From: Oceanimonas aquatica
GTDB lineage: Bacteria > Pseudomonadota > Gammaproteobacteria > Enterobacterales > Aeromonadaceae
Direction of reading: 5' to 3'
Length of the DNA: 64,000 nucleotides
Assembly: GCF_030732065.1 (NCBI RefSeq)
Contig: NZ_JAVBHX010000007.1
Coordinates: forward strand, 124,001-188,000
The position numbers were made by a program, and so were the translations under genes. The first letter of the stretch is position 1, and each line of letters starts with the position of its first letter. This document shows positions 57,591 through 62,855 of this stretch, piece by piece. The notes under the pieces were generated by a model. It had not been told where the DNA came from. It ran no database searches and saw only the letters and a list, made by a program, of their open reading frames with translations.

Positions 57591-57637
57591 GTCCTTATGG
57601 TCCTTGTGAGGCGCAGAACCCCAAGGCCATCGGCCAT

Positions 57638-57718
57638 CGGTTCCCTACGCCAGTGTTAACTGGATCAGGTTCAACGGGTTCGGCATGATGCCGTCTCGGC
57701 CTTTCGGCTCCCCGACCA
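57638..57718 (-). promoter_or_regulatory. TPP riboswitch controlling thiD
   Basis: Read on the minus strand, the aptamer begins with GGTCGGGGAGCC and CCGAGA near 57718-57694. It ends with the conserved CCTGATCCAGTTAACACTGG, then CGTAGGGAA (57671-57641). These are the two halves of the THI-box. The thiD start lies about 50 bases beyond, which leaves room for control of translation. Confidence 0.93.
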
Positions 57719-57845
57719 ATGGCAGAATCATACCCAGCCCACCGGTCAAATGCCAGCCGCTCCACACGCACACAAAAATGTAACTAAATAACAAAAATTA
57801 TTCGATTGTATACAAAACAAAGGCTCATCCGGAGAAACTCGCCCA

Positions 57846-61825: not shown

Positions 61826-61940
61826 ATAAAAAAAGGGCCGGCATCAAGCCGGCCTAAATACTCTGGAAGCAATGTGAGCAATGTCGTGCCTTCGCAAGCT
61901 GCCGTGCCCTGTGTTAGATGGGAGGCCGTGTTCGGAAAGC
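61826..61940 (-). ncRNA. ryhB: RyhB iron-responsive small RNA
   Basis: The minus strand at 61889-61865 reads GCACGACATTGCTCACATTG then CTTCC, the invariant core of enterobacterial and Vibrio RyhB. The terminator GGCCGGC/GCCGGCC (61836-61842, 61848-61854) with seven T follows, about 115 nt from a predicted start at 61940. A Fur-box-like promoter lies directly upstream. RyhB works with Hfq to shut down iron-using proteins such as Sdh and Fe-superoxide dismutase when iron is scarce. The 361-bp gap 61688-62048 holds this RNA, the palindromic element and the yhhQ terminator. Confidence 0.92.
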
Positions 61941-61946
61941 AAGTTA

Positions 61947-61975
61947 ACGATAATTGTTATCATTTATAATTGCAA
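61947..61975 (-). promoter_or_regulatory. Fur-regulated promoter of ryhB
   Basis: On the minus strand, TTGCAA (61975-61970) and TATCGT (61952-61947) form -35 and -10 boxes with 17-bp spacing. GATAATTGTTATCATTTAT (61949-61967) matches the 19-bp Fur box GATAATGATAATCATTATC at 13 of 19 positions and covers the promoter. Confidence 0.8.
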
Positions 61976-62048: not shown

Positions 62049-62708
62049 TCAGGCATTGGTTTGCAGCGCGGCCTGTTCGTCGCCCAGCACCCGGCGGCTC
62101 AGGTATTTCAGCAGCAGGCCGTAGGCGGGCACGAACAGGCCTAAGCTGAACACCAGCTTGAAACCGTAATCCACCCAGGCGATTTCCACCCAGTGCTCGG
62201 CCATAAAGGGATCCGGCGAACGCCAGAACGCCAGACTGAAAAACGCCAGGGTATCCACCAGGTTGCCGAAAATGGTGGAGCAGGTGGGTGCCACCCACCA
62301 GGCCTTGATTCGGCGCAGCCGGTTAAACACCGACACATCCATGATCTGCCCCAGCACATAGGCCATAAAGCTGGCCAGGGCGATGCGGGCCACGAACAGG
62401 TTGAACTCCGACAGCGCCCCCAGGCCCTGATAGCTTGCCTCAAAAAACAGCACCGACAACACATAGGAGCTGGCCAGGGCCGGCAGCATCACCGCAAAGA
62501 TAATGCGCCGGGCCAGTCCGGCACCAAAAATGCGCACCGTCAGATCCGTGGCCAGATAAATAAAGGGAAAGCTGAGCGCGCCCCAGGTGGTATGAAAGCC
62601 AAACAGGGTAAAGGGCAGCTGCACCAGGTAGTTACTGGCGGCGATGACCGCGATATGAAACAACGACAGGCGGATCAGCGCCGTGCGGTATTGAGAGGCA
62701 GAAATCAT
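62049..62708 (-). CDS. yhhQ: 7-cyano-7-deazaguanine (queuosine precursor) transporter
   Basis: A 219-residue membrane protein of the YhhQ/VUT family with six helices that imports preQ0/preQ1 for queuosine tRNA modification. Signatures include LPFTLFGFHTTWGALSFPFIY (about 31-51), TDLTVRIFG and STIFGNLVDTLAFF. A preQ1-like aptamer overlaps its ribosome site. It is a single-gene unit ending at its own terminator. Confidence 0.95.
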   Translation of the reverse strand: MISASQYRTALIRLSLFHIAVIAASNYLVQLPFTLFGFHTTWGALSFPFIYLATDLTVRIFGAGLARRIIFAVMLPALASSYVLSVLFFEASYQGLGALSEFNLFVARIALASFMAYVLGQIMDVSVFNRLRRIKAWWVAPTCSTIFGNLVDTLAFFSLAFWRSPDPFMAEHWVEIAWVDYGFKLVFSLGLFVPAYGLLLKYLSRRVLGDEQAALQTNA

Positions 62709-62714
62709 CCGATA

Positions 62715-62748
62715 CCTTTTTGATTAATGGGGTCAGGGAACCCATTCC
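62715..62748 (-). promoter_or_regulatory. Probable preQ1-I riboswitch overlapping the yhhQ ribosome site
   Basis: On the minus strand, P1 is ATGGG (62745-62741) paired with CCCAT (62731-62727). It encloses the loop TTCCCTGAC, giving the GGGTTC hallmark, and is followed by TAATCAAAAAGG. The tail AGG can pair with CCT of the loop to close the H-type pseudoknot, and it is also the Shine-Dalgarno of yhhQ six bases before the ATG. Ligand binding would thus block translation. The compact form resembles class I aptamers such as the Thermoanaerobacter one. Confidence 0.72.
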
Positions 62749-62855
62749 GGACTGAAAACACTGAAGGCCGTTTGTTTATTCACCACCCGGAATGCGCAGT
62801 GGCGATATTCTAGCCGTTCTTCGAACAATTGTCTTCACTTGAAGTGACTTTTCGA

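Follow-up and report, generated by a model that had tools for sequence, protein, structure and literature searches.

The stretch of DNA analysed here, called the window, comprises 64,000 nucleotides (nt) of the Oceanimonas aquatica assembly GCF_030732065.1 (contig NZ_JAVBHX010000007.1, positions 124,001 to 188,000 of the forward strand). On its minus strand lies yhhQ, a gene for a transporter of the queuosine precursors 7-cyano-7-deazaguanine (preQ0) and 7-aminomethyl-7-deazaguanine (preQ1), and directly ahead of it a putative preQ1 switch at 62746-62715, which reads AAUGGG-UUCCCUGAC-CCCAUU-AAUC-AAAAAGG. A first-pass annotation, made by a model from the letters and their open reading frames, had placed a preQ1-I riboswitch of about 34 nt at 62715-62748, which is right to within 2 nt. 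Its size agrees with the published Escherichia coli (E. coli) type III element (PMC10622847), and its class agrees both with that switch and with the comparative evidence given below, the subtype having been left unnamed. The parts of the element and its gene are the following.

62741-62746, minus strand: 5' strand of the P1 stem, AAUGGG, from the sequence; covaries with 62726-62731 across relatives
62732-62740, minus strand: pyrimidine-rich loop UUCCCUGAC, U6 U7 C8 C9 C10 U11 N12 A13 C14 as numbered for the crystallized E. coli RNA (PMC10622847)
62732, minus strand: predicted preQ1 specificity base C, by homology (PMC10622847)
62735-62737, minus strand: anti-Shine-Dalgarno C9 C10 U11, the 5' strand of pseudoknot helix P2, complementary to 62717-62715 (A28 G29 G30)
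62726-62731, minus strand: 3' strand of P1, CCCAUU, from sequence and covariation
62722-62725, minus strand: variable L3 linker AAUC, from the sequence
62715-62721, minus strand: conserved A-rich strand with the Shine-Dalgarno sequence, AAAAAGG, from the sequence and PMC10622847
62718-62715, minus strand: AAGG, serving both as ribosome site and as P2 3' strand (PMC10622847)
62718, minus strand: A, predicted counterpart of the preQ1-contacting A27, by homology (PMC10622847)
62709-62714, minus strand: spacer UAUCGG, 6 nt between Shine-Dalgarno sequence and start codon, from the sequence
62708-62706, minus strand: AUG start codon of yhhQ, from the sequence
62049-62708, minus strand: yhhQ, 219 amino acids, preQ0/preQ1 transporter (NCBIfam NF008406)

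The yhhQ product scores 362.2 bits against NF008406 (cut-off 252) and is thus a YhhQ importer, the queuosine-precursor importer that the first-pass annotation had named as target. Its nearest named relatives are Oceanimonas proteins with 93-95% identity. QueF and TGT are both encoded in the host genome, so the host is probably able both to synthesize preQ1 and to incorporate it into transfer RNA.

The yhhQ leader of E. coli K-12 reads UUGGG-UUCCCUCAC-CCCAA-UGGUUAAUC-AAAAAGG-UACAAU-AUG, and for this element a 2.3 A crystal structure, binding of one preQ1 per RNA with a dissociation constant of 58 nM, and switching in cells have been reported (PMC10622847). In the structure, A27 of the Shine-Dalgarno sequence contacts preQ1, A28, G29 and G30 pair with U11, C10 and C9, and the amine of the ligand contacts the phosphate at position 12 (PMC10622847). 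The window leader shares with it the gene, the loop UUCCCU-N-AC, the GGG/CCC core of P1, the AAAAAGG tail and the 6-nt spacing to the AUG, and the counterparts of the E. coli bases are all present (U62740, U62739, C62738, C62737, C62736, U62735, A62733, C62732, A62718, A62717, G62716 and G62715). The fifth P1 pair is A-U in the window and U-A in E. coli. The linker AAUC has 4 nt fewer than the wild-type E. coli linker GGUUAAUC and 1 nt fewer than UAAUC, the linker of the E. coli 33-mer construct. In E. coli, truncation to UUAAUC or to UAAUC tightened preQ1 binding 4.2-fold or 1.9-fold, respectively, relative to wild type (PMC10622847), an analogy by which the window copy may bind preQ1 more tightly as well.

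The leader further has the make-up of a type III element: a P1 of 5-6 base pairs (AAUGGG/CCCAUU, the sixth being A62746-U62726), a short pyrimidine-rich loop that starts with UU, an AC ahead of the P1 3' strand (A62733 C62732; definition from PMC11625349), four to five A followed by an AAGG Shine-Dalgarno sequence able to pair with the loop CCU, and a place upstream of yhhQ in gamma-proteobacteria (NF008406); P1 and P2 both covary in orthologs, P2 by one pair only. Complementarity predicts that the loop CCU at 62737-62735 pairs with the AAAAAGG tail as an H-type pseudoknot. Two details of the first-pass annotation are to be amended here. Its stem ATGGG/CCCAT does pair and covary, and can be extended to the 6 base pairs given above; the double role that it gave to the Shine-Dalgarno sequence as pseudoknot strand matches E. 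coli, the sequestered stretch being AAGG and not AGG alone.

Both other types of class I share some of these traits. Type II members (Thermoanaerobacter, Bacillus subtilis) have the H-type pseudoknot and the AC before the P1 3' strand (PMC11625349), but differ from the window in a larger loop that places a guanine above the pocket and in burying a smaller part of the Shine-Dalgarno sequence (PMC10622847). Type I members (Carnobacterium, Haemophilus, Neisseria) likewise carry UU atop the P1 5' strand (PMC11625349), but have UC instead of AC before the P1 3' strand, three additional loop nucleotides and two stacked preQ1 molecules (PMC10622847, PMC11625349).

The core pattern GTTCCCTNNNCYC-N(4-22)-AAAAAGG, composed after the element and its relatives had been seen, had a single match in the window, whereas 100 shuffles gave none; the 3.45-Mb genome likewise held one match, and none to the reversed pattern. 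In a sample of the order there were 125 matches, one in each of 125 of the 247 genomes, compared with 3 matches in the 247 for the reversed control. All but two of them (123/125) sit 6-97 nt upstream of a YhhQ match on the same strand; the other two, in genomes G343 and G351, have no listed YhhQ match next to them and look fortuitous. A scan of named genomes, limited to the best 80 of 491 confirmed candidates and hence to the nearest relatives, found the element upstream of yhhQ at 80/80 loci, with GGGUUCCCU identical and the loop UUCCCU unchanged throughout. The element also precedes yhhQ in 23/23 genomes of a same-genus sample, which overlaps the named-genome set in some genomes. A second match within one of these genomes (L111) is only a fragment of the gene and lacks a leader.

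Pairing within P1 was counted on 88 of the 123 yhhQ-linked pattern matches, those with flanks fetched, the window included. P1 was not a selection criterion, although the pattern itself dictates pair 1 and, in part, the 3' letters of pairs 2 and 3, and the better of a 9-nt or 10-nt loop was taken. Pairs 1 to 3 form in 88/88 leaders, pair 4 in 86, pair 5 in 76 and pair 6 in only 25. The states seen were U-A, A-U, G-C, C-G and G-U at pair 5, U-A, C-G and A-U at pair 4, and G-C and A-U at pair 2. Among the leaders parsed as described below, pair 3 is A-U in L188. Covariation is clear at pairs 4 and 5 and rare at pairs 2 and 3.

For pair statistics the leaders were parsed one by one, an alignment made with MAFFT having been dropped for the counts because it misplaced the tail; the numbers thus come from parsed leaders and not from a covariance model. 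The parser requires TTCNCT, at least 4 pairs in P1, a C ahead of the P1 3' strand and AAAAG[AG], so that other loops would escape it, and P1 pairs 1-4 and the P2 pairs U11-A28 and C10-G29 are true by construction. It read 221 of 267 loci, from which 85 distinct leaders were used; the comparisons with shuffles ignore shared descent. Pair 5 forms in 66/85 leaders (shuffle mean 32, maximum 45). The third P2 pair, C9-G30, is free on the C side and restricted to A or G on the other; its states are C-G in 75 leaders, U-A in 5, U-G in 4 and A-G in 1, and it is Watson-Crick in 80/85 (shuffle mean 71, maximum 76). U9-A30 replaces C9-G30 in two families (L171-L179, L189) and, being confined to these, may reflect a single event. 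The U-A pair nevertheless lends independent, modest support to the pseudoknot of the E. coli crystal.

We assign the element with confidence to the class I type III preQ1 riboswitches, as a translational OFF switch in the yhhQ leader; that it binds preQ1, favours it over preQ0 and represses in the cell is inferred from E. coli. At low preQ1 the P1 hairpin would form alone, leaving AAGG free and the importer translated. When it is plentiful, preQ1 would bind in the loop, Watson-Crick paired to C62732 and contacted by A62718, while C62737, C62736 and U62735 would pair with G62715, G62716 and A62717; closure of the pseudoknot would bury the AAGG and stop translation of the importer. YhhQ also carries preQ0, and a working switch could have preQ0 or a related 7-deazaguanine as its main natural signal. 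This we regard as very unlikely, the E. coli element binding preQ0 about 138-fold more weakly than preQ1 and the named pocket bases being the same in the window (PMC10622847). Queuosine-precursor import in Oceanimonas and its relatives thus appears to be under the same feedback switch of 30-odd nt as in E. coli. Type, target and mechanism have already been published for E. coli, and the window copy adds an unremarkable member to that known family.

Several results weigh against the assignment to this riboswitch. Loop position 12, whose phosphate the ligand amine touches in E. coli, is G in the window and C in E. coli; leaders with a 9-nt loop show all four bases (A, C, G, T) there. The P2 pairs U11-A28 and C10-G29 are invariant as well as required by the parser and so give no covariation evidence. 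The folding energy of the hairpin is ordinary compared with shuffles (z -0.07), so the evidence is one of conservation and covariation, not of stability. An ordinary energy would also suit a rival without any ligand, a ribosome-binding site that is conserved together with a fixed hairpin, but the constancy of the UUCCCU loop over the 80 named-genome loci, the covariation of P1 and of one P2 pair, and the binding of preQ1 by the E. coli homolog (PMC10622847) make this most improbable.

The distribution of the element also has gaps. Matches to YhhQ at E<1e-50 were found in 12 of 274 genomes of the class sample, and five of these twelve (L112, L114, L117, L120, L122) lack the element. In the order sample YhhQ matched in 168 of 247 genomes and was preceded by the core pattern in 123; of the 45 genomes with YhhQ and no pattern, 44 were examined, G348 being left out. 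Twenty-four of these 44 leaders are variants (UCU/AGA in 10, U or A at position 9 together with AAGG in 10, a long linker in 3 and A-U as the inner pair of P1 in 1), two more are the leaders L196 and L195, with a C-to-U change of the specificity base and a broken P1, respectively, and in the remaining 18 the parser found no element. Those 18 consist of L183, all 12 members of family f174 and 5 remote YhhQ matches, which may not be orthologs. The element is common, not universal, ahead of yhhQ.

The first-pass annotation had proposed the Rfam PreQ1 model as a check, and this gave no support: RF00522 matched nowhere in the 64 kb at its gathering threshold (39 bits), the element included, nor in 1.6 kb and 81 nt around it at E<=10. 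Run on 81 nt of the proven E. coli leader, this search likewise gave no match, and 20 motif-bearing loci, with E. coli among them, were all without a PreQ1 match at the gathering threshold. Because the model misses a proven leader as well, its negative result is uninformative for the window. In the host's own genome RF00522 gave 6 sub-threshold matches, the best at 18.1 bits and none at the element; these were set aside as noise, the same search having matched in 14/14 control genomes, above the cut-off in 1. The Rfam 15 PreQ1 model overlooks type III in all motif-bearing loci tried, and yhhQ leaders may stay unlabelled wherever annotation relies on Rfam.

Some relatives carry leaders of unusual make-up. 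Those of L171-L179 and L189 are type III-like, with the loop UUCUCU, the tail AAAAAGA and a further AGG a few nt downstream; judged by sequence, this AGG is likely to be the Shine-Dalgarno sequence, in which case the ligand would mask the ribosome site in an indirect way only. L196 has the loop UUCUCUCAU, in which the predicted preQ1 specificity base has changed from C to U, and in L195, assigned to the same genus, P1 is interrupted beside the loop; decay or an altered ligand are possible explanations for the pair. In the Vibrionaceae (L030-L087) the loop has 10 nt, one more than in the window, in 58/58 leaders, and the specificity C is preceded by C (53) or A (5), this base being A in the window and E. 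coli. L185, L186 and L187 have an L3 linker of 33-44 nt, apparently with an additional hairpin after P1 and before the A-rich tail. There is a small chance that the short linker and G12 give the window copy a lower threshold or another balance between preQ1 and preQ0 than in E. coli, and that, outside the window, L171-L179 and L189 hide the ribosome site indirectly and L196 represents decay or a different ligand.

Further upstream, a weak sigma-70-like promoter candidate, AAGACA-17-TAGAAT, lies at 62807-62835 on the minus strand with 9 of 12 consensus matches; it is tentative, as about 0.7 such matches are expected by chance in the region scanned. A rival reading makes the leader a transcriptional attenuator, its hairpin shared with a terminator, as type II members in B. 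subtilis act on termination (PMC11625349). A consensus scan from the promoter candidate to yhhQ found no terminator-like site, and AAGG stands only 6 nt from the AUG, so that an attenuator is hardly credible here and the translational switch is preferred.

A literature search on preQ1 and Oceanimonas returned no paper; subscription papers were mostly outside the search, so that this copy may already be in a published list. A search on preQ1, riboswitch and Aeromonas returned single mentions of preQ1 only.

Downstream of yhhQ, a RyhB small RNA (RF00057, 73.6 bits) occupies 61829-61893 on the minus strand, beginning about 155 nt past the end of the gene on the same strand. The sequence GATAATTGTTATCATT at 61949-61964, about 55 nt upstream of RyhB, resembles a Fur box. 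Among 21 relatives scanned, RyhB reaches the gathering threshold in the 2-kb flank downstream of yhhQ in 11 (L008-L015, L017, L018 and L026), and L057 and L064 score slightly under it. The window also carries a thiamine pyrophosphate (TPP) riboswitch (RF00059, 74 bits) at 57625-57724 on the minus strand.
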